Shown: in pieces, positions 47,071 through 63,642 of the stretch
How positions within the stretch are numbered: the stretch's first letter is position 1
Layout: every line of letters starts with the position of its first letter
DNA from: Burkholderia sp. Bp8992
Lineage (GTDB): Bacteria; Pseudomonadota; Gammaproteobacteria; Burkholderiales; Burkholderiaceae
Reading direction: 5' to 3'
NCBI RefSeq assembly: GCF_003853705.1
Contig: NZ_QTQI01000005.1
Coordinates: forward strand, 186,001-250,000
Length of the DNA: 64,000 nucleotides
Program-made: the position numbers and the translations under genes
Notes under the pieces: generated by a model
What the model saw: the letters and a program-made list of their open reading frames with translations, nothing else
Told to the model about the DNA's origin: nothing
The model's database searches: none

Positions 47071-47982
47071 TTGCCCACGCCCCGCAAGCGGTTGCCACCG
47101 CTCAATACGATCTCTGCTTTCGAGGCTTCGGCGCGGTTGATGAGCTTCACCAAGGCAGCTGACGAACTCCATCTTTCGCAGGGTGCGGTGAGCCGGCAGA
47201 TCCAGGTGCTGGAGGAGCGGATGGGCGTGCCGCTTTTCACGCGGCGGCACAAGGAGATCCAGTTGACGCGTGCCGGCCTCATCTTCCAGCAGGCCATCGC
47301 ACAGAGCCTGAATACGATTCGCCGGGCGGTGACGATGATCGAAGCGCTGGATACCAGCACGGTCACCATTGCCGCGAGCAATGCGATGGCGAACTTCTGG
47401 CTGATGCCCGCCATCTTCGAGTTCCGCACGCAGCACCCGAACATCGACATTCGCGTGCTTGCCAGCAATACGCCGGTCGACCCGTGGCATGAACCGGTCG
47501 ATCTCGCGATTCGATACGGCGACGGACACTGGCCGAACCTCGCGAAGGTCAAGCTGTTCGAAGAAGAGATCTTTCCGGTGTGCGCACCGTCGTATCGACA
47601 AGCGCACGAGATCGAGACGGTGCAGGACCTGATGGATTGCGAATTGATCGAATACGCGTCGGACAGCGCGGATTCCAATTCGTGGGATACGTGGCTGGAG
47701 CACGCTGGCGTCCAGCATGGCGCGGTGCGCAAGAACCTCACGCTGTCGAACTACGACCTCGTCTATCGCGCGGCCTGCAGCGGCAAGGGCGTCGCGCTGG
47801 CGTGGGCATATGGCGTTCCGGAAGAAGACCGCGGCGCGCTCCTCGTCCGGCCGCTCGATGTTTCCGTCAAGACTGGATTGTGCGAATACATCGTGTATGC
47901 CGACACCGAAGAACTCAGCGCGCCCGCGAAGATCTTCCTGAGTTGGTTGATCGATTTCGCCAACCAGAGCCTGTGGTCGTAG
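47071..47982 (+). CDS. LysR-family regulator (GcvA/AmpR-like)
   Basis: The 303-residue protein has an N-terminal LTTR winged helix (PPLNTISAFEASARLMSFTKAADELHLSQGAVSRQI, described in parts) and a two-lobed inducer domain (VTIAASNAMANFWLMPAIFEF; DLAIRYGDGHWPNLAKVKL). The PLN-x-[IL]-x-AFEA start and DLAIRYG motif are typical of the GcvA group. The chosen start is TTG at 47071, preceded by TGGAGA at the right spacing; no ATG fits. It is the only regulator in the catabolic locus, convergent with the reductase gene. It is therefore the likely activator of the divergent Rieske/formaldehyde dehydrogenase operons. Confidence 0.88.
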   Translation: MPTPRKRLPPLNTISAFEASARLMSFTKAADELHLSQGAVSRQIQVLEERMGVPLFTRRHKEIQLTRAGLIFQQAIAQSLNTIRRAVTMIEALDTSTVTIAASNAMANFWLMPAIFEFRTQHPNIDIRVLASNTPVDPWHEPVDLAIRYGDGHWPNLAKVKLFEEEIFPVCAPSYRQAHEIETVQDLMDCELIEYASDSADSNSWDTWLEHAGVQHGAVRKNLTLSNYDLVYRAACSGKGVALAWAYGVPEEDRGALLVRPLDVSVKTGLCEYIVYADTEELSAPAKIFLSWLIDFANQSLWS

Positions 47983-47994
47983 CCGCTTGCGCGG

Positions 47995-49029
47995 CTAGAA
48001 CTCGATGGTGACGTCCGACACCGGCACCGAGCAGCACGGCAGGATGTAGCCTTCGTCGATTTCCTCATCGGTGATGCCACCGGCGTGATTCATGTCGACT
48101 TGCCCCTCCAGCTTGCGCAGCTTGCACGTTCCGCACACGCCCGACCGACATGCATTGGGAATTCTCGGGCCGTTCGGCAGCGCGTGGAGTGCGTCGAGAA
48201 TGGCCGTCCCGGGCGCACAGTCGACCTCGACGCGCGACTGCGACAAGCGCAGCCGCGACACGCCGAGCGAAGCCGGTACATGCGCGGGCACCTGTTCTGG
48301 CAGTTGAAACCGCTCCTGATGGAAGCGGGATTCGGCGCCGCCGTTCTCCAGAAACAGCGTGCGCATCGCGGACATGAACGGGTCCGGCCCGCAGCACAGT
48401 ATTTGTCGCGCGGTCCAGTCAGGCGTCGTGCGGTCGAGCACCGCCTTCGACAGCACCGCGGATGGAAAATCCGCGCTCGCTTCGTCGGACGTATAGAAGT
48501 GCGGCGTGATGCCGCGCGATGCGTGCGCCATGCGCAGCAACTCGTCATGAAACAGCATGTCGCGGGGCGTGCGGACGAACTGCAGGAACCGGATGTCGGC
48601 GCGCCCGCCACGCGCGTGCACCGCGCGTGCCATCGCCATCAGCGGGGTGATGCCGACGCCGCCCGCGGCGAACAGCAGGGGCTCATCGGGATTCGCCGGC
48701 AATACGAAGTCGCCGGCCGGTCGCGACACCTGCACGCGGTTGCCGACGGCGAGCCGATCGTGGAGCCATGGCGACACCGCGCCGCTCGGCGAACGCTTGA
48801 CTGTGATGTCGAACGTTGCATCGCCGTGCGCGCCCGGTGCGGACGAAATGGTGTAGCAGCGGTAAAGCGTGTCGCTGCCGGTGTCCACGCCCAGCGTCAC
48901 GTACTGCCCGGGCTGGAAGCTCGTTTGTGCTTCAGGGTGTGCGAGCGAAAACCGGAAGGTCTTGACGTTCCAGTTCTCGCGTACGATATCCACGCAAATG
49001 GCTTCGGTGAAAGCGCTGCCGTTCATCAT
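47995..49029 (-). CDS. Oxygenase reductase (GbcB-like, FNR domain plus 2Fe-2S ferredoxin)
   Basis: In this 344-residue protein residues ~10-100 form a ferredoxin-NADP reductase-like flavin domain (FQPGQYVTL, RCYTISSAP). Residues ~110-240 form the NAD(P)H-binding domain (LLFAAGGVGITPLMAM, LCCGPDPFM). The C-terminal ~90 residues are a plant-type [2Fe-2S] domain with CRSGVCGTC and a distal CC. This hybrid arrangement is that of GbcB, the electron-transfer partner of glycine-betaine Rieske oxygenases. Its ATG overlaps the stop of the Rieske gene (ATGA), proving tight coupling. It is probably shared by both Rieske oxygenases of the locus, since no second reductase is present. Confidence 0.92.
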   Translation of the reverse strand: MMNGSAFTEAICVDIVRENWNVKTFRFSLAHPEAQTSFQPGQYVTLGVDTGSDTLYRCYTISSAPGAHGDATFDITVKRSPSGAVSPWLHDRLAVGNRVQVSRPAGDFVLPANPDEPLLFAAGGVGITPLMAMARAVHARGGRADIRFLQFVRTPRDMLFHDELLRMAHASRGITPHFYTSDEASADFPSAVLSKAVLDRTTPDWTARQILCCGPDPFMSAMRTLFLENGGAESRFHQERFQLPEQVPAHVPASLGVSRLRLSQSRVEVDCAPGTAILDALHALPNGPRIPNACRSGVCGTCKLRKLEGQVDMNHAGGITDEEIDEGYILPCCSVPVSDVTIEF

Positions 49030-50270
49030 GCCATGCACTCCACGGGAATGACCCTCGGTGCGCCGGCCAGCTCCGACTTGAGCGTGCCGAGGTACCAATC
49101 GACGAACTCCGTGACGCCGCGCTCGACGAGCGGCGAGTAGGGGCCGGGCTGATAGCCCTTCGAGTTGATGCCTTGCTGGTTGGCTTCGACGAGGCGCTGG
49201 TCCTGGGCGTTGGTGGCTTTCCACACGGCCGTGAGATCGTCGAGGTCGTAGTCTTCGCCTTCGACGGCGTCCTTGTTCACGAGCCACCACGTCGTCACTT
49301 GCGTCTCCGTCGCGCTCAGCGGCAGCAGCCGGAACGCGATCGCGTGATCGGACAGTACATGGTTCCACGTATTCGGGAAGCGCAGCAGGCGCAACGAGCC
49401 GACGTCCGCATCCTGGTTGGTACCAAGCAGCTTCCTGCACGCGAGCTCGCCGCTCAGCGTGAACGACAGTCCGCGTTCCATCGCGGCACGCACCATCCGA
49501 TAGCCATCGGAAGTTTCGATCGGCTTGAACGGCAATCCGGCCGCGGCCCAGCGTGCTTCATCCATTTCGCACTTCGCCGCATAGTCGCCGCCGAAGCGCG
49601 GGTCCGTCGGGCCGTCGAACTCGGAAATCGTACGCAGCAGTTCGGGATGGCTTGCCGAGCAGTGATAGCACTCGCGATTGTTCTCGAGTACGAGCTTCCA
49701 GTTGCCCTTTTCGATGATGGTCGACTCGAACGCGACCTTCGCGTTGTCGAGCCCGTGCGGGCGGATATACGGCGACACCTGCTCGCGGAACGCGTCGAAC
49801 GGGCTCGGCATGCGAGCGAGCGAGATGAAGATGTAGCCCTCGACCGATTCGCAATGCACGGGCTTGAGCGCGTATTGCGACGCATCGAATTCGGCGCCCA
49901 TCTCCTTGGCGAACATCAGTTTGCCGTCAAGGCCGTAGGTCCACTGGTGATACGGGCACACGAGCGTGGCAGACGAGCCCTTGTCGCCGGCGCAGATGCG
50001 CGATCCGCGATGGCGGCACGTGTTGTAGAAAGCCCGGATCGCGTGGCTCCGGTCGCGAATCACGACGATCGAACTGGCGCCCACCTCCAGCGTGAACCAG
50101 TTGCCGGGCTTCGGAATCTGGGCCGACACGCCGGCGAAGATCCATTGGCGTTCCCAGATCAGTTCGAGGTCGCGTTCGTACACCGCCTGGTCGGTATAGA
50201 ACGGCTGCGGCAGCGACCGGCCCGCCACGCGGGACTCGATGAGCGAAGTGAGTTGACTGTTCGACAGCAT
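49026..50270 (-). CDS. Rieske N-demethylase, GbcA-like (copy 1)
   Basis: This 414-residue oxygenase subunit has a Rieske [2Fe-2S] site Cys85/His87 (TCRHRGSRIC) and Cys105/His108 (CPYHQW). The mononuclear iron ligands are His203 and His208 in ECYHCSASHPEL, followed by the C-terminal catalytic domain with FPNTWNH. The pattern matches glycine-betaine and proline-betaine (stachydrine) demethylases, which oxidise an N-methyl group of a quaternary amine and release formaldehyde. The start at 50270 is chosen because it aligns without gaps for at least 210 residues with the second copy; a longer frame begins at 50315. It forms a two-gene operon with the reductase. Confidence 0.92.
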   Translation of the reverse strand: MLSNSQLTSLIESRVAGRSLPQPFYTDQAVYERDLELIWERQWIFAGVSAQIPKPGNWFTLEVGASSIVVIRDRSHAIRAFYNTCRHRGSRICAGDKGSSATLVCPYHQWTYGLDGKLMFAKEMGAEFDASQYALKPVHCESVEGYIFISLARMPSPFDAFREQVSPYIRPHGLDNAKVAFESTIIEKGNWKLVLENNRECYHCSASHPELLRTISEFDGPTDPRFGGDYAAKCEMDEARWAAAGLPFKPIETSDGYRMVRAAMERGLSFTLSGELACRKLLGTNQDADVGSLRLLRFPNTWNHVLSDHAIAFRLLPLSATETQVTTWWLVNKDAVEGEDYDLDDLTAVWKATNAQDQRLVEANQQGINSKGYQPGPYSPLVERGVTEFVDWYLGTLKSELAGAPRVIPVECMA

Positions 50271-50664
50271 GGTGATGTTCGATAGGGTTTCGGATGCGTC
50301 TCGGAATGAATGCATGAGGCGATTGAACCTGCTTGGCCACGCGCTCGCAACCGATGAAAACTGATGAGTTGCATGAAGTTTTGATGGTCAAACGCGACAT
50401 GGATGTCTAAACAGCGGTAGATGTCATTCAAAAAATCATTCATCGTCATAAAGTCCGTGGCGAAAACTGCCCGTAACGCCGCGTACATCCGATGGATGCA
50501 GATTTGCATGCGTTAGATCAGAAAAACTGCTTTGACGCGTGATTTCGCGGCTCCGATGATTCGGGACATCGGTCGCATCGCATTGCTTTCGCAACGCCGC
50601 GAATCAGAACCGTCGTTACGAAGACGACGTCCGATCTGAAGCGACAACAACAATCGGAGACGCC
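50271..50664. promoter_or_regulatory. Divergent control region, Rieske copy 1 / fdhA
   Basis: This AT-richer 394-bp region contains no gene. It holds the small dyad ATGCAgattTGCAT at 50496-50509, and TTGCATG at 50368-50374. Similar TGCAT elements occur upstream of Rieske copy 2, suggesting a shared binding protein, plausibly the LysR regulator. The two divergent promoters must lie here. Confidence 0.5.
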
Positions 50665-51867
50665 ATGTCAGGAAATCGTGGAGTGGTTTATGTCGGGCCC
50701 GGGAAAGTCGAGGTGCGCAATATCGCCTTCCCCGAGCTTTCGGAGCCGTCGGGTCGCAAGGCTGGTCATGGCGTGATCCTTCGTGTCGTGGCGACCAACA
50801 TTTGCGGTTCCGACCAGCATATGGTGCGCGGCAGGACCACGGCGCCAGCTGGACTCGTGCTGGGCCACGAGATCACGGGTGAAGTGATCGAAGTCGGCTC
50901 CGACGTGCTCACGCTCAAGAAGGGCGATCTCGTGTCGGTGCCGTTCAACGTCGCGTGCGGACGCTGTCCGATGTGCAAGGCGCAGAACACCGGGGTCTGC
51001 CTCGGCGTGAATCCGGCGCGCGCCGGCGGCGCGTACGGCTATGTCGACATGGGCGGCTGGATCGGCGGGCAGGCCGAATTTGTGATGGTACCGTATGCGG
51101 ACTTCAACCTGCTCAAGTTTCCCGACCGCGATCGGGCCATGGCGAAAATCTGCGATCTCACCTGCTTGTCCGACATTCTCCCCACCGGTTATCACGGTGC
51201 AGTCACCGCCGGCGTCGGGCCGGGCAGCACCGTGTATATCGCGGGTGCCGGCCCGGTTGGCCTCGCCGCGGCCGCTTCCGCGCGGCTGCTCGGTGCGGCG
51301 GTGACCATCATCGGCGACGTGAATCCGCAGCGGCTCGAGCATGCGCGGCGCGTCGGTTTCGAGACGGTCGACCTTTCCAGGGACGCGTCGCTGGCCGACC
51401 AGATTGCCGGCGTGCTCGGCGAGCCGGAGGTCGATTGCGCGATCGATTGCGTCGGCTTCGAAGCGCGCGGACACGGGCACGCCGGCTCACAGGCCGAAGC
51501 GCCGGCAACCGTGTTGAACTCGCTGATGGAAGTGACGCGCGCCGCCGGCAAGATCGGCATTCCCGGTTTGTACGTGACGGACGATCCCGGTGCGGACGAT
51601 GCCGCGGCACGCAAGGGCAATCTGTCGGTTCGGTTCGGGCTTGGCTGGGCGAAGTCGCATTCGTTCTTCACCGGGCAGACACCGGTGATGAAGTACAACC
51701 GAAGCCTGATGCAGGCGATCCTCTGGGATCGTCTCGACATCGCGAACGTCGTGAACGTCAACGTGATCGACCTGGATCAGGCGCCGGCCGGATACGCGGA
51801 ATTCGACGCAGGCGTTCCGAAGAAATTCGTTATCGATCCGCACGGCGCATTCAAGACCGCTTCGTGA
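50665..51867 (+). CDS. fdhA: Glutathione-independent formaldehyde dehydrogenase
   Basis: The 400-residue zinc alcohol-dehydrogenase-fold enzyme matches Pseudomonas putida FdhA nearly throughout. Evidence includes the start MSGNRGVVYVGPGKVEV, catalytic-zinc Cys47 (NICGSD) and His68 (LGHE), structural-zinc Cys98, Cys101, Cys104 and Cys112, the NAD site AGAGPVGLAAA, and the C-terminal EFDAGVPKKFVIDP block. It oxidises formaldehyde to formate with NAD and no glutathione. Beside two N-demethylases that release formaldehyde, the role is clear detoxification. Start codon and family length agree. It heads a + strand run leading to the tryptophan dioxygenase. Confidence 0.96.
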   Translation: MSGNRGVVYVGPGKVEVRNIAFPELSEPSGRKAGHGVILRVVATNICGSDQHMVRGRTTAPAGLVLGHEITGEVIEVGSDVLTLKKGDLVSVPFNVACGRCPMCKAQNTGVCLGVNPARAGGAYGYVDMGGWIGGQAEFVMVPYADFNLLKFPDRDRAMAKICDLTCLSDILPTGYHGAVTAGVGPGSTVYIAGAGPVGLAAAASARLLGAAVTIIGDVNPQRLEHARRVGFETVDLSRDASLADQIAGVLGEPEVDCAIDCVGFEARGHGHAGSQAEAPATVLNSLMEVTRAAGKIGIPGLYVTDDPGADDAAARKGNLSVRFGLGWAKSHSFFTGQTPVMKYNRSLMQAILWDRLDIANVVNVNVIDLDQAPAGYAEFDAGVPKKFVIDPHGAFKTAS

Positions 51868-51959
51868 TCCGTTCGATCCGGAGCCGGTAAGTACGACTGC
51901 GGTGTCGACCGCCGGATCGTGCGTCGGCCAACCGGAATTTAAGCAATCAGGAGTACACA

Positions 51960-52829
51960 ATGGGATGTCCATTCTCGGGACATGAACCGGCAACGGAATC
52001 CGCTATCGATGCAAGCTGGCACGACGCGCAACTGGATTTTTCCAGGTCGATGAGTTACGGAGACTACCTGCACCTCGATGCGATCCTCGGCGCGCAACAT
52101 CCGCTGTCGCCAGAACACAACGAGATGCTGTTCGTCGTTCAGCATCAGACATCCGAGCTGTGGATGAAACTGATGCTGCACGAGTTGCGCGCGGCCAGGA
52201 TAGGCGTTCGCGACGACGCACTGCAGCCGGTGTTCAAGATGCTCGCGCGCGTGTCGCGGATCATGGATCAACTCGTCCAGGCCTGGAGCGTGCTCGCGAC
52301 GATGACGCCGCCGGAGTACACGGCGATGCGGCCTTACCTCGGCCTGTCGTCGGGGTTCCAGTCCGCGCAATACCGCGAGATCGAGTTCATCCTCGGCAAC
52401 AAGAACGCGACGATGCTGCGCCCGCACGAGCATCGTCCGGACAGCGAGGCGCTGCTGCGCGACGCGCTCGCGGCACCGTCCTTGTATGACGAGAGCATCC
52501 GGCTGCTCGCGCGGTCCGGCTTGCCCGTTGACGTGGACCGCCTCGATGCGGACTGGACGCAGCCGACCCAGCACAACGCGTCCGTCGCTGCCGCGTGGCT
52601 GCAGGTCTATCGCGATCCGCAGACGTTCTGGAGCCTCTACCAGCTGGGCGAAAAGCTCGTGGATATCGAGGATTCTTTCCGCCAATGGCGTTTTCGCCAT
52701 CTAACGACGGTCGAGCGCGTGATTGGGTTCAAGCGCGGCACGGGCGGGACCGAAGGTGTCGGCTATCTGCGGAAGATGCTCGACGTCGTGTTGTTCCCCG
52801 AGCTCTGGCAGATACGGACCGAACTCTGA
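51960..52829 (+). CDS. kynA: Tryptophan 2,3-dioxygenase
   Basis: The 289-residue all-helical haem enzyme opens the indole ring of L-tryptophan to N-formylkynurenine. Residues known from the Xanthomonas enzyme are all kept with a constant +7 offset: Phe58, His62, Tyr120, Arg124 (carboxylate binding), proximal haem His247 and Thr261 (ammonium binding). The active site is therefore intact for free tryptophan. The gene lacks its usual kynU/kynB neighbours. Instead it lies 92 bp after fdhA and 57 bp before an aminotransferase, inside a betaine-type demethylation locus. It is probably a second, pathway-specific paralogue of the chromosomal kyn-operon enzyme. Confidence 0.94.
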
Positions 52830-52886
52830 TTCCGACGCGTCTCGAGACGCGATCAGATCCAAATAATTAATTCAGGATGACTTCAA

Positions 52887-54101
52887 ATGTTTAGAAACGT
52901 AGAAGCCTTCCCCGGCGATCCGATTCTGTCGTTGATGGAAGGGTTCGTCGCGGATTCCCGCCCCGAAAAGACCAATCTCGGCATCGGGCTCTATTACGAC
53001 GAAGCGGGGAGGATTCCGGTGCTGGCGTCGGTCAGGCAGGCCGCAGCGCTCGTCCGCGATGCGGGAAGGCCTCACACGTACCTGCCGATGGAAGGCGATG
53101 CGGCGTATCGCACGGCGGTCCAGCACATCGTCTTCGGCAGCGATTCGGAGGCGGTGACGTCGGGACGTATCGCGACGATTCAGTCGATTGGTGGGTCGGG
53201 TGCGATTCATATCGCGGCGCGCTTCTTGAAGGCCACGCTGCCGGACAGCCGTATCTGGATCAGCAACCCAACGTGGGACAACCACCGCGTCTTGCTCGAA
53301 TCCGCCGGCCTCAAGGTCGATACCTATCCGTACTTCGATAGCCGGACGAATTGCGTCGACTTCGACGGCATGCGGGCGACGCTCGACACGTTGCCCGAGC
53401 GCAGCATCGTGCTGCTGCAGCCGTCATGTCACAACCCGACCGGCGCGGATCTGTCGGCGGAACAGTTCGAGCAGGTCATCGACGTGCTGAAGCGCCGCAA
53501 CCTGTTGCCGTTCGTCGATATGGCCTACCAGGGATTCGGCCACGGGCTGGACGAAGACGCCGCGCCAATTCGCAGCATGGTCGACGCTGGGTTGCAGGTC
53601 GTCGTGTCGAACTCGTTCTCGAAGAACTTCTCGCTGTATGGTGAGCGCGTCGGTGCGCTGTCGATCGTATGCGCCGATGCGGAGACCGCTGCGCGCGTGC
53701 AGGGGCAACTGAAGGCAGCGGTCAGGAAGGTGTATTCGAGTCCGCCGGCGTTCGGTTCTCAACTGGTCGGCGCGATCCTGACCAGCCAGACGTTGTCGCG
53801 GCAATGGCAGCACGAGGTCGACGCGATGCAGCGGCGCATGAAGGCGATGCGGCAGAACCTGAGGGCCGCGCTCGAAGCGCTCGCGCCCGAGGTCGACGCG
53901 CGCTATCTGACGGATCAGCGCGGGATGTTCAGCTACACGGGCCTGACTGCGGCCGAGGTCGACGTGCTGCGCGAGCAGAAGTCGATCTACCTCGTTCAAT
54001 CGGGCCGAATGTGCGTCGCCGGGTTGAACGACGGCAACGTCGCGTATGTCGGCGAAGCGATCGCGGAGGTGCTCAGGCAGCGATCGGCCGTATTGAACTG
54101 A
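52887..54101 (+). CDS. Class I aminotransferase (AspC/TyrB-like)
   Basis: The 404-residue PLP enzyme matches the aspartate/aromatic aminotransferase subfamily. Evidence is the start MFRNVEAFPGDPILSLMEGF, the NPTWDNH and HNPTGAD motifs, the PLP-binding lysine in SNSFSKNFSLYGERVG and the late QRGMFSYTGL motif with Arg substrate contacts. It transfers amino groups between amino acids and 2-oxo acids. In this context it could act on tryptophan, kynurenine or another aromatic amino acid released by demethylation. It sits 57 bp after kynA and 53 bp before a RidA gene, so cotranscription is likely. Confidence 0.9.
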   Translation: MFRNVEAFPGDPILSLMEGFVADSRPEKTNLGIGLYYDEAGRIPVLASVRQAAALVRDAGRPHTYLPMEGDAAYRTAVQHIVFGSDSEAVTSGRIATIQSIGGSGAIHIAARFLKATLPDSRIWISNPTWDNHRVLLESAGLKVDTYPYFDSRTNCVDFDGMRATLDTLPERSIVLLQPSCHNPTGADLSAEQFEQVIDVLKRRNLLPFVDMAYQGFGHGLDEDAAPIRSMVDAGLQVVVSNSFSKNFSLYGERVGALSIVCADAETAARVQGQLKAAVRKVYSSPPAFGSQLVGAILTSQTLSRQWQHEVDAMQRRMKAMRQNLRAALEALAPEVDARYLTDQRGMFSYTGLTAAEVDVLREQKSIYLVQSGRMCVAGLNDGNVAYVGEAIAEVLRQRSAVLN

Positions 54102-54154: not shown

Positions 54155-54538
54155 ATGATTCGTAAAACGATCGATACGGGTCTTCCCGCGCTGAACCAGC
54201 CTTTTTCGTGGGCCACCCGGGTCGGCTCGCTGCTTTTCACCGCGCACGGGCCCGTGACGATGGACGGTTCGATCGGCGGCGGGCCGATCGACGCACAGGC
54301 GCGACTGACCTTCTCGAATCTGCAGCGGGCGGTAGCCGCGGCAGGGGGCGCGATGCACGACGTTGCGCAGGTGCTCATTTATATGAAGGATGCGACTCAC
54401 ATGTCGACGATCGATCGCATTTACCGGGAATTTTTTACCGATCCGTATCCGAATCGCTCGAGCGTGGTCGTCGCCGGCTTCGTCCATCCGGAGATGCTCA
54501 TCGAGATCGTCGCGTATGTGGCGCTTTCCTGGAATTGA
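54155..54538 (+). CDS. RidA-family imine/enamine deaminase
   Basis: The 127-residue protein of the YjgF/YER057c/UK114 family has a core with LLFTAHGPVTMDG, AAGGAMHDVAQVLIYMKD and YPNRSSVVVAGFVHPEMLIEIVAY. The Arg in PNRSS and Glu in IEI are the conserved catalytic pair. RidA proteins hydrolyse reactive imines formed by amino-acid oxidases or PLP enzymes. A FAD amine oxidase and an aminotransferase in the same run give it an obvious job. The first ~15 residues are shorter than canonical RidA. Confidence 0.87.
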   Translation: MIRKTIDTGLPALNQPFSWATRVGSLLFTAHGPVTMDGSIGGGPIDAQARLTFSNLQRAVAAAGGAMHDVAQVLIYMKDATHMSTIDRIYREFFTDPYPNRSSVVVAGFVHPEMLIEIVAYVALSWN

Positions 54539-54568: not shown

Positions 54569-54907
54569 ATGAACGATTCTGCAACGACGGCGCTGACACG
54601 TGCCGATGACGCGGTGTGGGACATCCGTGAAGGCGCGCAAGAAGGCGGTGGCGGTATCGCGTGGGCCGTGCGCTCGACCGGGAATTCGCTCGCGTCCGGT
54701 TTCGGCCGGCTGAAGGCGGGCGAGACCCCAGCGAAGACCCTCGACTACGACGAAGTGATTCATGTGCTCAGCGGCACGTTCGGCGTGACGTGCGACGGCC
54801 GACAGTTGCTCGCGCAGGCCGGAGACGTGCTGTCACTGAGCCGGGGATCGGTCGTCACGTATTCCGGCCGCGACGCGGAATTCTTCTTCGTCGTCACGGC
54901 CGCCTGA
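54569..54907 (+). CDS. EutQ-like small cupin
   Basis: In this 112-residue protein the single cupin fold reads VIHVLSGTFGVTCDGRQ, then AGDVLSLSRGSVVTYSGRDAEFFFV. This pattern matches the cupin of ethanolamine-utilisation EutQ and betaine-locus cupins more than dioxygenase cupins. Typical metal His residues are largely missing, so it may be non-metal or sensory. ATG 54569 was selected over an in-frame TTG two codons earlier. It lies 30 bp after RidA and 31 bp before the FAD oxidase. Role in the pathway unknown. Confidence 0.75.
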   Translation: MNDSATTALTRADDAVWDIREGAQEGGGGIAWAVRSTGNSLASGFGRLKAGETPAKTLDYDEVIHVLSGTFGVTCDGRQLLAQAGDVLSLSRGSVVTYSGRDAEFFFVVTAA

Positions 54908-54938: not shown

Positions 54939-56273
54939 ATGAACGCTTCAGTATCTTCAGAGAAATTGCTCCCCGCCGACGACAACACGAACGGCTGGTC
55001 CGCGATCCTTCCGCCGCGCGTGCCGCGTGAACCGGTGCGGCAGTCGGCGAGTTTCGACTGGCTCGTGGTAGGCGCCGGCTATGCCGGGTTATCGGCAGCC
55101 CGGCGGCTTGCCATCTTGAACCCGTCCCATACGATTGCGCTCGTCGACGCCCAGGCAGTCGGTGAGGGCGCGCATGGCCGGAACGCCGGGTTCGCCATCG
55201 ACCTTCCGCACAACAACGATCACGACCCCGGCAACACGGAAAAGGGCTATCGTCACATGCAACTGAGTCGCTACGGGATCAATACGCTCGAGGAGCTGGT
55301 CCGCGTGCATGGGATCGAATGCCAGTGGAGCAGGCGGGGGCGCTACGATTGCGCCGTTTCCCCCGACATCTCGCGCAAGTTGCTGGCTGCAACGGCGGCC
55401 GAGCTCGACTCGCTGGGAGAGCCGTACGAAAGACTGCGCGGGGACGCGCTCCACGAACGGCTGGGCACGCGCTACTATGATTCCGCGATCTATACGCCTG
55501 GCACGCGGCTCCTGAATCCGGCTGCGCTGTCGCGCGGGCTGGCCGATTCCCTGCCGGCCAACGTGCAGTTGTTCGAGCATTCGCCGGTGCTAGACATAGC
55601 GCCGGGGTCGCCCGTGGTGGCGACGCTGCGCAATGGCGTACGGCTGTCCGCGCGAAAAGCCGTGCTCACCAACAACGCGTTCATCAACCGCTTCGGGTAT
55701 TTCGGCCGGAAATTGCTACCGTTCGTGCTGTTTGCAAGCCTGTCGCGGCCGTTGACGCCGGACGAGCGAGCCGGCCTCGGCGGCACGCACGATTGGGGCA
55801 TTACACCGGCTCACGGCATCGCAGGCGCCACGTTGCGATATACGCAGGACTTCCGGATCCTGTTCCGGTACGGGTTCCAGTTCGCGCCGACCTTGCGTTG
55901 CCCGGCGGCGCTGCGCGAGCGAATGAAGCGTACGCACCAGGCGCTTTTCAGGGCCCGCTTTCCGATGCTGGAGCACGTATCGCTCGAACATTTTTGGGCA
56001 GGTTACCTTTCGCTGAGCCACAACGGCGCGCCCGGCTGGGGGCAACTGTCGAAGAACGTGTACGCCGCGGTCAACTGCAACGGCGTTGGCATTGCCAAGC
56101 AGACGACAGCCGGCGCGCTCGTCGCCGAGCTGGCCTGCGATACCGGGCATCCGCTGATCGGCGACATGCTGGCCCTGGGGTCGCCCGACCTGCTTCCGCG
56201 ACGGCCGTTCCTGGACATCGGCGTAAGAAGTGTGCTCGCGGCCCAGAAATGGGCGGGCCGCTCCGAGAAGTAG
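54939..56273 (+). CDS. FAD-dependent amine/amino-acid oxidoreductase (DAO family)
   Basis: The 444-residue flavoprotein has an N-terminal dinucleotide-binding VVGAGYAGLSAARRL, the GRNAGF motif following HG in the substrate-side loop, and a C-terminal NGVGIAKQT motif. It resembles gamma-glutamylputrescine oxidase (PuuB), sarcosine oxidase and N-methyl-tryptophan oxidase-type enzymes, which dealkylate secondary or tertiary amines to release an aldehyde. In this locus the natural job is removal of N-methyl groups left after Rieske demethylation, feeding formaldehyde to FdhA. The exact substrate is inferred, not read from the sequence. An MFS transporter follows after 29 bp. Confidence 0.87.
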   Translation: MNASVSSEKLLPADDNTNGWSAILPPRVPREPVRQSASFDWLVVGAGYAGLSAARRLAILNPSHTIALVDAQAVGEGAHGRNAGFAIDLPHNNDHDPGNTEKGYRHMQLSRYGINTLEELVRVHGIECQWSRRGRYDCAVSPDISRKLLAATAAELDSLGEPYERLRGDALHERLGTRYYDSAIYTPGTRLLNPAALSRGLADSLPANVQLFEHSPVLDIAPGSPVVATLRNGVRLSARKAVLTNNAFINRFGYFGRKLLPFVLFASLSRPLTPDERAGLGGTHDWGITPAHGIAGATLRYTQDFRILFRYGFQFAPTLRCPAALRERMKRTHQALFRARFPMLEHVSLEHFWAGYLSLSHNGAPGWGQLSKNVYAAVNCNGVGIAKQTTAGALVAELACDTGHPLIGDMLALGSPDLLPRRPFLDIGVRSVLAAQKWAGRSEK

Positions 56274-56302: not shown

Positions 56303-57640
56303 ATGAAGAGCGAGACACGGTATCAAGCAGCATCGACCGCACACGAAGGGCGCGCCACGAAATGGTGGGTGCTGTTTCTTCTGACGCTGGTCTACACGGT
56401 CAACATCGCAGATCGTTACGTGGTGTCGACCTTGATCGAACCCATCAAGCATGAATTCCGTCTCAGCGACAGCGAAGTCGGCTTCATGACCGGCACGGCC
56501 ATTGCGCTGTTCTACGTGACGCTGAGCCTGCCGCTCGGCTTGCTCGCGGACCGCGTGAACCGCAAGCGGATGATCAGCGTCGCACTGGCGGTCTGGTCTG
56601 GCTTCACGGTCCTGTGTGGCGCGAGCAGCACCGCACTCACGTTTTTCCTGTCGCGAATCGGCGTGGGGATCGGCGAGGCAGGCTGCATGCCGTGCGCGGT
56701 CTCTCTGCTGGCGGACAAATTCGCGCCGTCGATGCGCGGTACCGCGATGAGCCTCTTTTCCGTCGGCGCGGCCGTGGGTGCGCTGATGGGTTCAGCGGGC
56801 GGCGGCTGGATCGCCGAGCAGTACGGGTGGCGTGCGGTCCTGCTCGTGTTCGGGTGCCTCGGCATTCCGCTGGCCGGGATCCTGCTGCTCGGCTTTCGCG
56901 AACCGCTGCGCGGCGTGTTCGACAAGCCGGACAGCGCGACGAACCGCGCGGGCCTCAAGGAAACCCTGCGTCATATCCGAGACTGCAAGGCGCTATTCCA
57001 CGCAATCGCCGGCACGACCGTGCTGACGTTTTGGGGCTGGGGGCTGGTCTGGTGGACGCCGTCGTTTCTCGTCCGGAGTTTCCATCTCGGGGTCGGCGGC
57101 GCCGGCGAAATCCTCGGCGCGATTCACGGGATCGGCGGGGGCCTCGCGATGCTCGGCACCGCGCTGGTGCTGAGCAGGCCTCGCGCGGCGTCGAGCTTCG
57201 CGCAGGCGCGGCTCGTCGCGCTCGTGACCGCACTCGCGACGATCCCGTCGTTCGTCGCATACGCGTCCACGTCGCTTCCCGTCACGGATCTGATGCTGTG
57301 GGTGTTCGTTCCGACGATCTACGTGTATATCGGGCCTTCTGCGTCGATGGCGCAGAATCTCACGCCTGCCGCGATGCGCGGCCAGGTCATCGGGATCATC
57401 GTGTTCGTCACGAACGTCGCGAACCTCGTCATTGCGCCGCAAGCGATCGGGTTTCTGTCGGACGTGATCGCGCTGCATCTGTCGAACCCTTCGGAATCGT
57501 TGCGATATGTGCTCGTGCTGGTGTCACTGACTGGCTTGTGGGCCGCGTGGCATTTCCACCTGGCCGGGCGGCATATGCGTGCCGGTGAGGCCGACCGGTC
57601 TTCCGCGACGATCCACGGCACGCCGGTGCGCGGCTCCTGA
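56303..57640 (+). CDS. MFS transporter of the catabolic locus (Spinster-like)
   Basis: The 445-residue carrier has about 12 hydrophobic helices. LADRVNRKRMISVALAVWSG is the MFS loop 2-3 motif, split here, and IADRYVVSTLIEPIK follows helix 1, as in the Spinster/sugar-acid subfamily. An RIGVGIGEAGCMPCAVSLLAD segment is the characteristic helix 4 motif, split here. It likely imports or exports an organic pathway compound and is cotranscribed with the FAD oxidase. A strong terminator follows 7 bp after the stop codon, closing the operon that begins at fdhA. Confidence 0.87.
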   Translation: MKSETRYQAASTAHEGRATKWWVLFLLTLVYTVNIADRYVVSTLIEPIKHEFRLSDSEVGFMTGTAIALFYVTLSLPLGLLADRVNRKRMISVALAVWSGFTVLCGASSTALTFFLSRIGVGIGEAGCMPCAVSLLADKFAPSMRGTAMSLFSVGAAVGALMGSAGGGWIAEQYGWRAVLLVFGCLGIPLAGILLLGFREPLRGVFDKPDSATNRAGLKETLRHIRDCKALFHAIAGTTVLTFWGWGLVWWTPSFLVRSFHLGVGGAGEILGAIHGIGGGLAMLGTALVLSRPRAASSFAQARLVALVTALATIPSFVAYASTSLPVTDLMLWVFVPTIYVYIGPSASMAQNLTPAAMRGQVIGIIVFVTNVANLVIAPQAIGFLSDVIALHLSNPSESLRYVLVLVSLTGLWAAWHFHLAGRHMRAGEADRSSATIHGTPVRGS

Positions 57641-57647
57641 ACCGGGT

Positions 57648-57680
57648 TGCGCAGGGGACGCCCTGCGCACGTTTCCTTAT
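57648..57680 (+). terminator. Terminator of the fdhA-kynA-MFS run
   Basis: TGCGCAGGG (57648-57656), loop GACG and CCCTGCGCA (57661-57669) form a perfect 9-bp stem-tetraloop, followed by CGTTTCCTTAT, a moderately T-rich tail. It lies 7 bases after the MFS stop codon. Confidence 0.7.
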
Positions 57681-58024
57681 CCGCCGACGCGGCGCGGTTC
57701 CTTTCGGAATCGCGTCGCGTTTTGCTTTGAGCGCAGCGAGTCGCGAGCGATTTCCGCGATCACGCATGGCGGTGCGCAGACCGTCTCCTTCGCAATCGTA
57801 CATGGTCGCCCCCGCGTCCCTTTCCCGCCACGCAATTCGACGACCGGCGCCGCCTCGGTGCGAAACCGCTTTGTGTCGCAGCATCGTGCCTCCGATGCCG
57901 CTTCGCATGCACGTCTCCCGTTAAGGACTAACACCTACGCGGCGTGATCCTCCGGCAGCGGCCGGCGCTGCGCCGTGTGCGCACGTGCGTTGATCCACAA
58001 GCCTCAGCGTGGTCTGACGATAGT

Positions 58025-58044
58025 TGCATGTGAATTGTCATGCA
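58025..58044. promoter_or_regulatory. Operator-like dyad before Rieske copy 2
   Basis: TGCATGtgaattgtCATGCA is a perfect inverted repeat of 6-bp arms with an 8-bp AT-rich spacer, the size class of LysR-type sites. Related TGCAT elements lie in the divergent region of Rieske copy 1. This supports one regulator for both parts of the locus. Confidence 0.5.
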
Positions 58045-58166
58045 TCGAATCAGAAATAGTGGTTTGTCGAGCCGTTTATGTCGTCATGAAATCGTCTCAA
58101 CGACACGCCGGTGTCGCCGTGCCGCCGGCAACGAAGGCACGCAACGACTGAAGCACGAGACGTTCA

Positions 58167-59417
58167 ATGTTCGACTCACTGAAGCTTAAATCGCAGCTGG
58201 CCGCGTGTGTGCCAGGCCGCCCGCTACCACAGGCGTTCTACAAGGATGACGAACTGTTTGCAGCCGACATGGCGTTGATCTGGGAACGCCACTGGCTGTT
58301 CGCTGGCCTGTCGTGCGAGATCGGGAAGCCGGGCGACTGGTTCACGTTGATGATCGGCGAGACGTCGGTCGTCGTCGTGCGTGACCGTGACGGCACGATC
58401 CGGGCGTTCTACAACACCTGCAGGCATCGCGGGTCGCGTATCTGCGCGGGCGAGCGCGGCTCGTCGCGGATGCTCGCTTGCCCGTATCACCAGTGGACCT
58501 ACGGACTCGATGGCCGGCTCGCGTATGCCGGCAACATGGGCGAATCGTTCGATGCGTCCCGGCATGCATTGAAGCCCGTCGCGTGCGAGATCGTGGCCGG
58601 ATACATCTTCATCAGCCTCGCCGAAGAACCGCAGGACTTTTCGTCGTTCAGCCGTCGCGTGGCGCCTTATCTCGCACCGCACGGCTTCGACCATGCAAAG
58701 GTCGCGTTCGAATCGACCATCGTCGAGAAGGGCAACTGGAAGCTCGTGATCGAAAACAATCGCGAGTGTTATCACTGCTCCGCGAACCATCCGGAGCTGC
58801 TGCGGACGATTTCCGAGTACGACGGCCCGACCGATCCTCGCTACGGCAGCGACGGCATCGTGTTTGCCGAAAAGACCGCGCGTGACGAAGCGCGCTGGGC
58901 GGCTGCCGGATTGCCTTATGCGCCGGTCGAGGAGGCACCTGAGTACCGGTTGATTCGCGCAGCGATGGAGCGCGGCCTGTCGTTCACGATGTCGGGCGAG
59001 CCGGCCTGCACCCGGGTGATGGGCACGCTGCCGGAGCAGGACGTCGGCTCGCTGCGCCTGCTGCGTTTTCCCAACACGTGGAATCACGCGCTCGGCGATC
59101 ACGCGATCGCATTCCGGTTGCTGCCGCTGGGCCCGCGGGAAACGCAGGTCACGACCAAATGGCTCGTCCACGAGGACGCGGTCGAAGGCACCGACTACGA
59201 CCTCGACACGCTGACGGCCGTATGGAAGGCCACCAACGCGCAGGATCAGCGGCTCGTCGAGACGAATCAGCTCGGTATCAATTCCAGGGGGTACGAGCCG
59301 GGCCAGTATTCGCCGCTCGTCGAAAGCGGCGTGATGGCCTTCGTCGACTGGTACGTCGACGCGATGCGCGAAGGTCTCGCGCAGTCGCGCCAGACGTTGC
59401 CGGTCCAGGCGGCGTGA
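58167..59417 (+). CDS. Rieske N-demethylase, GbcA-like (copy 2)
   Basis: The 416-residue oxygenase subunit has the same architecture and residue numbering as copy 1: Rieske ligands Cys85/His87 and Cys105/His108, mononuclear iron ligands His203/His208, and FPNTWNHALGDHAI downstream. The two copies remain alignable along their whole length, with nearly identical cores such as ENNRECYHCSA and LLRTISE, yet differ in surface and pocket regions. This suggests specialisation for successive methylated intermediates or for related betaines. No second reductase exists, so it must share the GbcB-like protein. It heads the operon containing the betaine ABC importer. Confidence 0.92.
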   Translation: MFDSLKLKSQLAACVPGRPLPQAFYKDDELFAADMALIWERHWLFAGLSCEIGKPGDWFTLMIGETSVVVVRDRDGTIRAFYNTCRHRGSRICAGERGSSRMLACPYHQWTYGLDGRLAYAGNMGESFDASRHALKPVACEIVAGYIFISLAEEPQDFSSFSRRVAPYLAPHGFDHAKVAFESTIVEKGNWKLVIENNRECYHCSANHPELLRTISEYDGPTDPRYGSDGIVFAEKTARDEARWAAAGLPYAPVEEAPEYRLIRAAMERGLSFTMSGEPACTRVMGTLPEQDVGSLRLLRFPNTWNHALGDHAIAFRLLPLGPRETQVTTKWLVHEDAVEGTDYDLDTLTAVWKATNAQDQRLVETNQLGINSRGYEPGQYSPLVESGVMAFVDWYVDAMREGLAQSRQTLPVQAA

Positions 59418-59551
59418 CACTGATCGTGAATCCGTCGAATCGCGTCGAGTGATCGAGCCGTGGTCGACAGTCAGCAGCAAGCGTTACCCGGCCACGCCGC
59501 CGACGCGGTGTTAAGCCGGCCATCCATATCAATCATCGGGCGGAGTGAGAT

Positions 59552-60616
59552 ATGTTCCAACGGATTTTCAAGTTCAACGCGGCACGTACGCTGGCCGCAT
59601 GCGGCGTCGGTGCGGCAGCATTGCTGGGCACGCCTGCGCATGCGGCCGATGCGGCGCAATCGTCATGGTGCGCTGCGGCCAAACCGGTGAAGTTCGCCGA
59701 AATGGGCTGGGACAGCGCGAAATTCATGACCGAGGTGGTGCGCTACGTGCTCGAGAAGGGCTACGGCTGCAAGACCGAGCTGATGACCGCGACGAACGCG
59801 ATCGCGTTGCAGGCGATCACGACGGGCGACCTGAACGTGATGGTCGAGTATTGGGCCGGCCGGACGCCCGCCTACGAGAAGGCCGTGCAGGACGGGCGGG
59901 TCAAGATCGTCGGCTCGCTTGTCAACGGCGGCAGTGTCGAGGGCTACTACGTGCCGGAGTACGTGATCAAGGGCGACCCCGCCCGCGGCATCAAGCCGCT
60001 CGCGCCGGACCTGAAGAGCATCGCCGACCTGCCGCGATACAAATCCGTATTCGCCGATCCGGAAGATCCGTCGCGCGGCCGCCTGTACAACTGCCCGATC
60101 GGCTGGCAGTGCGAGTCTGACACCGAACAGAAGATGAAGGCCTACAAGATCGGCGCAGCGTACACGGACTTCCATCCCGGCTCGGGCCCGGCGCTCGACG
60201 CCGCAGTCGAATCCGCCTTCACCCGCGGCAAGCCGATCCTGTTCTATTACTGGGAGCCGTCGACCATCCTCGGTCGCTTCCGTGCGGTCAAGCTCGACGA
60301 GCCGGCTTACAACGCGACCTGCTGGAAGACCATCAACGGCAGCAAGGATCCGAATCCGTGCGGTTCCGCGTCGCCGCCGACGTCGCTGCGCGTCGTCGTG
60401 TCGAATTCGGTCGCCGACTCCGACCCGGCGCTGATGTCGCTGTTCGAGAAGGTGCAATTTTCGATCGGCGCGCTCAACGCGACCATCGCGCGCATGGCGA
60501 CCGACAAGTTGCAGCCGCGTCAGGCCGCGCTGGATTTCCTGAAGGCCAACCCGTCGCTCGTCGCTCAATGGGTGCCCGCTGCGGCCGCGCAAAAGGTGGC
60601 AGCCAGCCTGAAGTAA
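59552..60616 (+). CDS. Betaine-type ABC transporter substrate-binding protein (ProX/OpuAC-like)
   Basis: The 354-residue periplasmic protein has a signal peptide ending in PAHA. The mature sequence has the OpuAC/ProX pattern: VKFAEMGWDSAKF, VMVEYWAGRTPAYEK, and YYWEPSTILGRF near residue 230. The tryptophans and tyrosines of the ligand cage that holds the trimethylammonium group are expected in these motifs. It captures a quaternary-ammonium compound and delivers it to the permease/ATPase encoded next. Four or more cysteines (WCAAAK, GCKTE, NCPIGWQC, CWK, NPCG) probably form disulphides, an unusual feature for ProX-like proteins. Confidence 0.9.
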   Translation: MFQRIFKFNAARTLAACGVGAAALLGTPAHAADAAQSSWCAAAKPVKFAEMGWDSAKFMTEVVRYVLEKGYGCKTELMTATNAIALQAITTGDLNVMVEYWAGRTPAYEKAVQDGRVKIVGSLVNGGSVEGYYVPEYVIKGDPARGIKPLAPDLKSIADLPRYKSVFADPEDPSRGRLYNCPIGWQCESDTEQKMKAYKIGAAYTDFHPGSGPALDAAVESAFTRGKPILFYYWEPSTILGRFRAVKLDEPAYNATCWKTINGSKDPNPCGSASPPTSLRVVVSNSVADSDPALMSLFEKVQFSIGALNATIARMATDKLQPRQAALDFLKANPSLVAQWVPAAAAQKVAASLK

Positions 60617-60707
60617 AGCGTCGCGCCGCCGCCATGTGCGCACCGGCGCAATCGGGCTCCGCGCGCTGCCGGCGTGCGGAGCCAGCCTGAAATTGAAAGG
60701 AATCGAT

Positions 60708-61571
60708 GTGAACGGCATCTTTTATTCGCTCGACCTGGGCGATGCGATCAACCAGTTCTTCACCGGCGTCGTCGCGCGCTACGGCGACGTGTTTCATCAC
60801 GTCAGTGCGGTGCTGCTGCTGTACGCATTGAATCCCGTCGAAGCGCTGCTCAAGGCGACGCCTCCGCTCGCGGTCATCGCCGTCATCGGCGTGGTCGCAT
60901 GGCTCGGCGCGCGCCGAATCGGCCTGGCGGTGCTGCTGATGGCACTGACATACGTGATCGGCTGCCTCGGGCTCTGGGACAAGCTGATGGCGACGTGCGC
61001 GATCATGCTGACCGCGCTGATCCTGACGACGATCGTCGGCGTGCCGTCGGGCATCGCGATTTCGCGCAGCCCGGCCCTTGCACGTGTGTTCAATCCCGTA
61101 CTCGACATGATGCAGACGCTGCCGTCGTTCGTGTACCTGATCCCGGTCGTGATGTTGTTCGGGCTCGGTCGCGTGCCGGCGATTTTCGCGACGATGATCT
61201 ACGCGCTGCCGCCGCTGATTCGCCTGACGGACCTTGGCCTGCGTCAGGTTCCGGAGGACGTCGTCGAAGCCGCGCGTTCGTTCGGCGCGACGTCGTGGCA
61301 GCAACTGATCGCGGTCGAACTGCCGCTCGCGCTGCCGTCGATCATGGCGGGCGTCAATCAGGCCGTGATGATGTCGCTCGCGATGGTCGTCATTGCCTCG
61401 ATGATCGGCGCGCGCGGGCTCGGCGAAGACGTTCTGTCCGGCATCAACAACCTCGACATGGGGCAGGGCATCCTGGCCGGCGCCGCCATCGTCATTCTCG
61501 CGATCGTGTTCGACCGCATTACCCAGTCTTTCGGCGTGGGCAAGCGTGCACGCCGCCACGCACGGACGTAA
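60708..61571 (+). CDS. Betaine-type ABC transporter permease (ProW-like)
   Basis: This 287-residue inner-membrane permease has about six or seven helices and the EAA loop as [16 protein letters not shown]-like text ([22 protein letters not shown], split here) plus [12 protein letters not shown] before the core. It lacks the extra N-terminal domain of enteric ProW. The start is a GTG at 60708 behind AAAGGA, chosen because the upstream continuation has no membrane character or ATG. It functions with the upstream binding protein and the following ATPase. Confidence 0.9.
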
Positions 61572-61575
61572 TCAA

Positions 61576-62520
61576 ATGAATCATTCGACGCTCAGCAATA
61601 CGGGTACGTCCGTCGACGCGGAATCGAGCCGCGTATCGACCTGCGTCCACGCGGATCGCCGCGAACCCGAAGCCGTGCGCGGCGCTGTCGGTCGCGCGAC
61701 GGATGTGCCGATTCTCGAGCTGCGCCACCTGTACAAGGTGTTCAGCCCACACCGCGGCCGCATCGACGACGCGATCGCGATGGCCCGTAGCGGGATGCCG
61801 AAGGACGAGATCCTGCAGCAGACCGGTTGCAACGTCGCCGTGCGCGACGTGTCGCTGTCGATTCGTGAAGGCGAGATCTTCGTGATCATGGGATTGTCCG
61901 GGTCCGGGAAGTCGACGCTTGTGCGTCACTTCAACCGCCTGATCGAGCCCAATGCCGGCGAACTACTGTTTCGCGGGACCGACGTGCTGCAGCTCGGTTC
62001 GCGCGCGCTGCGCGAGATGCGCCGCCATCACATCGGCATGGTCTTTCAGAGCTTCGCGCTGCTGCCACACAAGACGGTGCTCGAGAATGTGGTGTTCGGC
62101 CGGTGGATTCGCGGCGACGCGAAGGCCGAGTCCGACAACGTCGCGCGCGACTGGATCAACGGCCGGCTCGGACTGAAGGGATACGAGCGGAAATACCCGG
62201 ATGAGCTATCGGGCGGGATGCGGCAACGCGTCGGCCTTGCACGGGCGCTCGTGTCCGAGCCTGACGTGCTGCTGATGGACGAAGCGTTCAGCGCGCTCGA
62301 TCCGCTGATTCGCTGTGAAATGCAGGACATCCTGCTGGAAATGCAGGCCGAACTGAAACGGACCATCGTGTTCATCACGCACGATCTCGACGAAGCGATG
62401 AAGATCGGCTCCAAGATCGCGATCATGAAGGACGGCGTGGTGATCCAGGTCGGCACGCCTGACGAGATTCGCAGCGCGCCGGCGAACGACTACGTCCGGC
62501 GGTTCGTGGAGGCAAGTTGA
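61576..62520 (+). CDS. Betaine-type ABC transporter ATPase (ProV-like, no CBS domains)
   Basis: The 314-residue ATPase carries the ProV-specific N-terminal [22 protein letters not shown] insert (split here), Walker [10 protein letters not shown], signature LSGGMRQR, Walker [12 protein letters not shown] and switch HDLDEAM. Unlike E. coli ProV it ends at ~314 residues, without the two C-terminal CBS osmosensing domains. This suggests a nutrient-uptake rather than osmoregulated transporter. It starts 4 bp after the permease stop codon. Confidence 0.92.
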
Positions 62521-62592
62521 TCGGGGCGTAAAACGAATTCGATGCACGTTAAGAAGGTTCGGTTCCATCACTCGATAATAGAGGAATCCATA

Positions 62593-63642
62593 ATGAAAAA
62601 GACAATGCTTGCAGTATCGTCCACGTTGATCTGCGGCGCGGCATGCGCGCAATCGTCCGTCACGCTGTACGGCCTGATCGACGCCGGCGTGACCTACACC
62701 AATCACGTGAACGATGCGTCCGGGAAAGGCGCGTCCCTTCAGTTCCAATCAGGGGTCGCCCAGTCGAGCCGATGGGGGATGCGCGGCACCGAAGACCTGG
62801 GTGGCGGGACGAAGGCGATCTTTACGCTCGAGAGTTCTTTCGACGTCGGCAACGGCAAGCTGCTCGGCGGCGGCGCGGAGTTCGGCCTCCAATCGTTTGT
62901 CGGCTTGAGCGGAAACTGGGGCACGGTGACGCTCGGTCGCCAGTACGATTTCATCGGCTATTACTTTCCCGCGTACGCGATTGCCGCCAATACGCCGGCC
63001 GGCTTGCTGGGCTGGAGCCTGCCTACCTACGCGTCGGGTGGATACGCGCTCGACAACCACGTGTGGGGCGACCTGATCAACAACGCGGTCAAATACGAGT
63101 CGCCCGTCATCGGCGGCTTCACGTTCGGCGCAATGTACGGCTTCGGCAATGTTGCAGGGTCACTGGGTCAGAACAGCTCCAGCAACTTCTACGTGAGCTA
63201 TGCGAACGGCCCGCTCAGCGCGGCACTCGCGTACCTGTCGATCCATAACGTGACGGCTTCGGCCAATTCCGTCGAATACGCAGCCGGTGCCGCGTACAAC
63301 ATCGGCAAGGCTCGGGTGTTCGGGTATGTCACCGACGTGCGGCTGTCGAGCGGCGACAAGGCCCGTGCGACCACCGTGGAAGGCGGCGTCAGCTATCTCG
63401 TGACGCCAGCGTTGTCGCTTGCGGGCGGCCTGCAGTATCAGGCCCGAAACAATAATGTGGGGAGCGCGAATCAGGTCATTCTGAGCGCCGACTACTTCCT
63501 GTCCAAGCGCACCGACGTTTATCTCGTCGGAACGCTGGCACACGATCATGGGTTCGGCACGCAGGCCGAGGCCGCGTTGGGTGCGTCGTCGAACACGAAT
63601 GTGCAGACTGCCGTACGCATCGCGATTCGGCACAAGTTCTGA
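62593..63642 (+). CDS. Porin associated with the catabolic locus
   Basis: The 349-residue betaproteobacterial porin has a signal peptide (MKKTMLAVSSTLICGAACA), mature start QSSVTLYGLIDAGVTY, the loop-3 motif FTLESSFDVGNGK, and terminal strand AVRIAIRHKF ending in Phe. It lies 72 bp after the ABC ATPase on the same strand. Its codon use is ordinary GC-rich, unlike the highly expressed porin elsewhere in the window. It is probably a substrate-induced channel that lets the betaine into the periplasm for the ProX-like binding protein. Confidence 0.9.
   Translation: MKKTMLAVSSTLICGAACAQSSVTLYGLIDAGVTYTNHVNDASGKGASLQFQSGVAQSSRWGMRGTEDLGGGTKAIFTLESSFDVGNGKLLGGGAEFGLQSFVGLSGNWGTVTLGRQYDFIGYYFPAYAIAANTPAGLLGWSLPTYASGGYALDNHVWGDLINNAVKYESPVIGGFTFGAMYGFGNVAGSLGQNSSSNFYVSYANGPLSAALAYLSIHNVTASANSVEYAAGAAYNIGKARVFGYVTDVRLSSGDKARATTVEGGVSYLVTPALSLAGGLQYQARNNNVGSANQVILSADYFLSKRTDVYLVGTLAHDHGFGTQAEAALGASSNTNVQTAVRIAIRHKF

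Follow-up and report, generated by a model that had tools for sequence, protein, structure and literature searches.

A block of about 15 genes lies at 46.85 to 63.64 kb of a 64,000-nucleotide stretch of DNA from Burkholderia sp. Bp8992 (contig NZ_QTQI01000005.1, positions 186,001 to 250,000; hereafter the window), and its gene families make it look like a complete predicted kit for the import of a methylated amino acid, its demethylation, and the breakdown of the remainder. An earlier note, made from the DNA letters alone, had proposed that this locus serves the catabolism of hypaphorine (tryptophan betaine), and had listed in it an importer, a porin, two Rieske oxygenases, a reductase, an oxidase, a formaldehyde dehydrogenase, RidA, an aminotransferase, and tryptophan 2,3-dioxygenase (TDO). 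Family models matched each of these products. The listed genes are open frames with high GC content at third codon positions and the codon bias of real genes, and they form a single contiguous block, to which a LysR/GcvA-type regulator, a EutQ-type cupin, and a major facilitator superfamily (MFS) carrier, omitted from that list, were added.

The regulator gene (47071..47982, plus strand) has a TTG start, and its product carries PF00126 and PF03466 and scores 256 bits with NF008352, below the cut-off of 288. On the minus strand lie the genes for a GbcB-like ferredoxin reductase (47995..49029), with Fer2, FAD, and NAD domains and 264 bits with NF058606 (below the cut-off of 500), and for GbcA1 (49026..50270), a Rieske oxygenase of group Vb, i.e. 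of the alpha-betaine N-demethylase type, with 548 bits with NF058607 (below the cut-off of 670). All further genes of the block are on the plus strand. They begin with that of the glutathione-independent formaldehyde dehydrogenase FdhA (50665..51867), which reaches 741 bits with TIGR02819 (cut-off 637), and that of KynA, a TDO of the accessory-copy type (51960..52829). These are followed by genes for a TyrB-like aromatic amino acid transaminase (52887..54101; 551 bits with NF006719, cut-off 377; best solved relative TyrB, 4wd2), a RidA-family imine/enamine deaminase (54155..54538; PF01042, 70 bits), the cupin (54569..54907; PF06249, 41 bits), a DAO-family FAD oxidase (54939..56273; PF01266, 136 bits), and the MFS transporter (56303..57640; PF07690, 143 bits). 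From fdhA through the MFS gene, neighboring genes are separated by 29 to 92 bp, so that kynA is located inside an apparent transcription unit. Farther downstream are the genes for GbcA2, a second Rieske oxygenase of group Vb (58167..59417; 537 bits with NF058607, again below 670), a ProX-type betaine-binding protein (59552..60616; OpuAC domain, PF04069, 188 bits; relatives 7yle and 1r9l), a ProW permease (60708..61571; PF00528, BPD_transp), a ProV ATPase (61576..62520; PF00005, ABC), and a Gram-negative porin (62593..63642; PF13609, Porin_4, 179 bits), the starts of the proW and proV genes being set by homology. Both Rieske enzymes contain the Rieske and Ring_hydroxyl_A domains.

KynA scored 438 bits with the TDO equivalog model TIGR03036 (cut-off 391). 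In its alignment to 2nw7, the active-site His, Arg, Tyr, and Thr are kept, residues that we take to have the same haem- and substrate-related roles. Judged by the model and by the alignments to 2nox and 2nw7, KynA is a normal TDO, as had been claimed from its translation.

Recurrence of the block

Two further copies of the block were found, one in Burkholderia sp. IMCC1007, whose source is given as maize root soil in PMC10293998, and one in a genome designated G455; together with that of the window, these copies are referred to as K loci. The IMCC1007 copy is gene for gene like that of the window. Homology between them spans window positions 46853 to 63643, and outside the block there are just short matches (150 to 301 bp) between transporter or porin genes. 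The values of dN/dS range from 0.059 to 0.217 across the 15 genes (0.106 for KynA), i.e. all of them are under purifying selection. The G455 copy consists of 14 genes that are 71 to 92% alike to those of the window and is devoid of GbcA2, with homology spanning window positions 46947 to 63643; beyond the block, its flanks have nothing in common with those of IMCC1007 except two short ProV matches (135 and 73 bp). The view of the block as one functional locus thus gained ground: its gene content and flanks support the idea that it moves as a functional unit among three unrelated settings, and its recurrence argues against a juxtaposition by chance.

In a search of kynA neighborhoods on genome contigs, which covered the best 80 of at least 583 relatives with flanks of up to 10 kb (some shorter), the GbcA/GbcB/ProXWV set was found near kynA only in IMCC1007 (L001). 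Another of these 80 loci (L077) had a weak Rieske match (31%), and several had GbcB-like (26-27%) or ProV-like (27-38%) matches, which were taken as unrelated reductases and ABC ATPases. IMCC1007 was the only one among 65 genomes of its genus with a KynA more than 73% identical to that of the window, and the third copy emerged when 144 genomes from the genus that includes G271 (described below) were scanned. No further K locus besides IMCC1007 was detected in family scans of 398 genomes with the oxidase and GbcA1 and of 329 genomes with GbcA2 (a sample that largely overlaps the former), nor was one found when 117 genomes from the genus that includes G455 were scanned a second time; strict E-value limits were applied, and the counts leave out more distant members.

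The KynA proteins of the two other K loci are 88% and 81% alike to that of the window, and in a phylogenetic tree the three form one clade (support 100/98), apart from the housekeeping copies. The block shares with the kynB-kynU-kynA operon a KynA that agrees with the TDO equivalog model, but its KynA belongs to a distinct clade and is encoded in a betaine locus that is without kynB and kynU. Both kinds of kynA occur in IMCC1007. As kynB, kynU, and kynA are present elsewhere in its genome, the kynA of the block is additional there, and the two genes missing from the block are available; by analogy with relatives, the window strain probably has its own housekeeping gbcA and kynBUA.

Two other kinds of kynA locus were encountered. 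A kynA-transaminase-RidA trio on a conjugative plasmid of Paraburkholderia graminis (L081:14907-17549), which is preceded by the gene for a group II intron maturase and surrounded by insertion-sequence genes, was considered as a fourth K locus and rejected, since only these three genes were matched. Four Burkholderia genomes (G264, G299, G396, and G388; loci L101, L102, L103, and L104) encode an additional, distant KynA (41-56%) in a different gene context, and the 20 kb read there gave no match to a demethylase.

Demethylases, ProX, and sister loci

The residues of GbcA1 that coordinate the Rieske cluster (C85/H87 and C105/H108) and the iron site (H203, H208, and D357) are invariant in all 10 aligned rows of A1. 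Both Rieske enzymes of the window contain the motif ENNRECYHC, where CntA has DNYMECYHC, and thereby show the two features by which group Vb is recognized in PMC7948474 and PMC10952381, i.e. an Asn at the position of Tyr203 of CntA and a Cys-x-x-Cys pair adjoining the iron. In PMC7948474, this Asn separates demethylases of alpha-betaines (glycine betaine, stachydrine) from the carnitine and choline enzymes. The assignment of both proteins as GbcA-like N-demethylases is supported by these residues, and the formaldehyde dehydrogenase encoded alongside fits the release of formaldehyde by demethylation. The closest solved structure is that of the stachydrine demethylase Stc2, in which, according to PMC7948474 and PMC10952381, the ligand is held by its carboxylate, and for which a doubly demethylated product was observed. 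Therefore, a single Rieske enzyme may suffice for two steps, which fits the G455 copy without GbcA2. The NF058607 score was ruled out as a discriminator of substrates, since enzymes of other betaine loci score below the two window proteins: the cut-off is also failed by the separate gbcA products (see below) of IMCC1007 (470) and G052 (471), by Stc2 (498), and by the Paracoccus enzyme (535).

By its gene content, the block belongs as a variant among the Rieske loci for betaine demethylation and does not constitute a system of a new kind. The Stc2 locus of Sinorhizobium meliloti likewise combines a group Vb oxygenase with a reductase and a LysR-type neighbor, but the identity is 48%, the downstream amino acid is proline, and no TDO, DAO oxidase, FdhA, or ProXWV is found among the 16 annotated features in the 17 kb read. 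Glycine betaine loci (gbcAB, OYE-type dehydrogenase, Etf, and purU; in Paracoccus FolD, Etf, FdhA, and BCCT) have the Rieske pair in common with the block, and that of Paracoccus adds an adjoining FdhA and a betaine-type carrier. In contrast to them, the K loci are without dimethylglycine, sarcosine, or folate one-carbon genes (neither DMGDH nor Sox was matched in the K loci of IMCC1007 and G455 or among the window proteins scanned) and have FdhA, KynA, transaminase, RidA, cupin, and FAD oxidase in their place.

A second type of non-housekeeping betaine locus (L120-L124, L166-L177), composed of Rieske, DMGDH, Etf, SoxBDAG, FolD, PurU, and ProXWV genes, was observed in eight Burkholderiaceae genomes (G052, G202, G271, G444, G453, G455, G436, and G472). 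These sister (S) loci have Rieske enzymes of the same clade, 77 to 83% alike to the closer window enzyme, together with LysR, GbcB, and ProXWV. All eight match DMGDH, EtfA, SoxA, FolD, and ProXWV, while the S stretch of G271 ends before soxB and EtfB is without a match in G444. Nine genomes were found to have Rieske enzymes of this clade, and each of them also carries a separate gbcA, which compared with that of IMCC1007 is at 84% in G052, G202, and G271 and at 85-88% in the other five. In IMCC1007 it adjoins genes for serine hydroxymethyltransferase, an OYE-type dehydrogenase, Etf, a carrier matching the trimethylamine N-oxide permease model, purU, and choline sulfatase, surroundings that we take to be the Pseudomonas-type glycine betaine arrangement, and a separate soxA is on the same contig as this gbcA in the four genomes searched. 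Since a separate gbcA is present in all nine genomes, the block is not the housekeeping glycine betaine route.

The S loci also provide points against a tryptophan-derived substrate. The expected linkage of kynA to the demethylases holds in the three K loci, but kynA was not found in any of the eight S loci (stretches of about 20 to 47 kb each), which have DMGDH and SoxBDAG, and the Rieske enzymes of the two locus types share clades. If the front end of the K loci, i.e. importer and demethylases, were tuned to a bulky betaine, changes relative to the S loci would be expected. Fixed differences between K and S enzymes amount to 8 in the GbcA1 type (3 K and 3 S rows; all before residue 150 except for one at 274) and to 10 in the GbcA2 type (2 K and 5 S rows; four in the catalytic half), and none of them falls in HPEL-DGPTDPR or LRLLRFPNTWNH, the stretches adjoining the iron ligands, giving no sign of an altered pocket near these ligands. 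The situation is similar for ProX. By alignment to 1r9l, its Trp 101, 185, and 234 occupy the three places of a tryptophan cage, the roles of which we presume from that structure, and the same cage is kept in six of the eight S loci; its third position is Tyr in G472 and G436, and the residue after it is Gln for Glu in G052, G472, and G436.

Such a resemblance would follow if the front end (ProXWV, GbcA/B) demethylated glycine betaine or another small betaine, the role presumed for that of the S loci, and kynA, transaminase, RidA, and oxidase were a co-travelling aromatic module. The existence of kynA-transaminase(-RidA) without demethylases fits this explanation: the trio stands alone on the P. 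graminis plasmid pPHS1_P (74, 68, and 68% for kynA, transaminase, and RidA), and in G039 kynA and the transaminase, the latter with one stop, are at 66 and 62%. On the other hand, G455, in which a K locus, an S locus, and a separate gbcA are found together, would then hold three glycine betaine systems; the K loci have no match to DMGDH or SoxBDAG; and kynA is embedded in the fdhA-to-MFS unit of a block that is common, as a whole, to three unrelated settings. Hence, either K and S loci take the same betaines and differ in the later steps, or the tryptophan genes travel with a small-betaine front end, and the separate gbcA in nine genomes and the three loci of G455 favor the former. We consider the small-betaine explanation unlikely.

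Candidate pathway and its alternatives

On balance, the breakdown of N-methylated tryptophan, with hypaphorine as the first candidate, is in our opinion the most likely role of the block, and it is somewhat more probable than all other explanations taken together. Of the original proposal, a single functional unit with N-demethylases, FdhA, and TDO was supported, while the binding of a tryptophan-sized betaine by ProX and its demethylation by the Rieske enzymes are predictions. In the route that we envisage, the porin and ProXWV would import hypaphorine, and the MFS carrier might perhaps serve a partly demethylated form. GbcA1/GbcB, aided by GbcA2 where present, would bind the substrate through its alpha-carboxylate at the iron of the Rieske enzyme, as in Stc2, and take off one or two N-methyl groups in the form of formaldehyde, which FdhA would oxidize. 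The DAO oxidase, together with RidA and the cupin, may handle the last N-methyl amino acid or deaminate the free amino acid, whereas KynA would open the indole ring of free L-tryptophan to give N-formylkynurenine, with kynB and kynU of the host continuing the pathway. The transaminase could act on tryptophan or kynurenine. The substrate, the order of the steps, and the roles of transaminase, cupin, and MFS carrier are deduced here from gene families and their combination.

The surroundings of oxidase relatives provided a line of evidence independent of kynA. Ten loci encoding relatives with 48-51% identity were read, i.e. seven besides IMCC1007 from the 398-genome scan and three from 904 plasmid records. 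In six of them (L099, L105, L107, L108, L109, and L111), an AroP/PheP-type permease adjoins the oxidase gene, and for the four permeases scored, AroP was each time the best NCBIfam model, although all were below the cut-off. A RidA-like gene (34%) and a gene for 4-hydroxyphenylpyruvate dioxygenase (HPPD) were also found near the oxidase gene in L108, and maleylacetoacetate isomerase (maiA) and aromatic transaminase genes in L105. These neighbors suggest that the oxidase acts on an aromatic amino acid. Less favorable to this idea are two loci with a TRAP carrier (L082 and L100) and two without an AroP match (L106 and L110). Moreover, the model of SolA, the N-methyl-L-tryptophan oxidase (NF008425), was not among the four families that matched the oxidase at E 0.001, and therefore the oxidase was not taken as SolA; the nearest solved structure by profile is glycine oxidase (E 3e-11).

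The six loci in which genes for a DAO oxidase and an AroP-type permease adjoin, in most cases together with one for a cupin, possibly represent a route, so far undescribed, by which aromatic amino acids are oxidized. Such DAO-cupin-AroP loci of Burkholderiaceae resemble the K loci in the oxidase (48-51%) and, in five loci with a match, in the cupin (45-54%) but differ from them in that no demethylase was matched, and in that the K loci have MFS and ProXWV in place of the permease.

The neighborhood of HPPD and maiA, both of tyrosine breakdown, and the general aromatic type of the transaminase would also agree with another N-methylated indole or aromatic amino acid as the substrate (N,N-dimethyltryptophan, abrine, hydroxylated hypaphorine, or tyrosine/phenylalanine betaine), in which case mixed aromatic products would be handled by KynA and the transaminase. 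Since TDO is highly specific for L-tryptophan, and no HPPD or maiA match was obtained among the window proteins scanned, we find this improbable, too. A last alternative, in which the betaine is of an entirely different kind and an unrelated compound is the substrate of KynA and the transaminase, e.g. to make kynurenate or an indole signal, is very unlikely, because kynA is embedded in an operon whose FdhA and importer argue for catabolism, although family models found neither kynB nor kynU in the locus, which also counts against hypaphorine, and a transaminase of this family could make kynurenate.

Coming back to hypaphorine, PMC11143572 states that this compound has been obtained from Pisolithus tinctorius, a root-symbiotic fungus, and is also present in legumes, and the title of a reference cited in PMC11805958 describes it as an inhibitor of root-hair elongation whose effect is reversed by indole-3-acetic acid. 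Literature searches, confined mostly to papers outside subscription, showed no bacterial gene cluster for its breakdown among the papers listed. Whether the K block is the first gene cluster for complete hypaphorine breakdown, and a mobile one, is in our view evenly balanced; in an extension of this idea, the S loci would be modular versions whose substrates include further betaines besides glycine betaine. If true, root-zone bacteria can feed on a plant-fungus signal, and betaine catabolism would be modular, with one demethylating front end and a back end that depends on which amino acid is released.

Genomic setting of the block

Upstream of the block, directly after ribA (43261-43911), lies a gene for a tyrosine-recombinase integrase (44135..45409, plus strand; PF00589 and PF13356), followed by one for an AlpA-type regulator of integrative elements (45980..46195, plus strand; PF05930, 38 bits, cut-off 21). 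Window positions 20001-43907 match large Burkholderia records of the plasmid collection, with Burkholderia arboris as the best match (99% coverage, 92.6% identity) and the sole record covering at least 80%. This chromosomal match stops at position 43907, i.e. at the end of ribA. The GC content, 0.65-0.70 within the first 38 kb, falls to about 0.62 between 40 and 44 kb and to 0.57-0.65 beyond 44 kb. The stop of homology at ribA, the integrase, the AlpA-type regulator, and the shift in GC together indicate that the block is most likely the horizontally acquired cargo of an integrative island. Megablast of the whole block against the plasmid collection gave no record covering 80% of it, and no tRNA gene was found within the window. 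The integrase and the AlpA-type regulator (44135-46195) mark an integrative element whose far end is not seen inside the window.

Separately, window positions 22936-26034 hold an RND efflux permease gene, also named adeF in the Burkholderia records, whose DNA is 73% alike to oqxB of enterobacterial plasmids.

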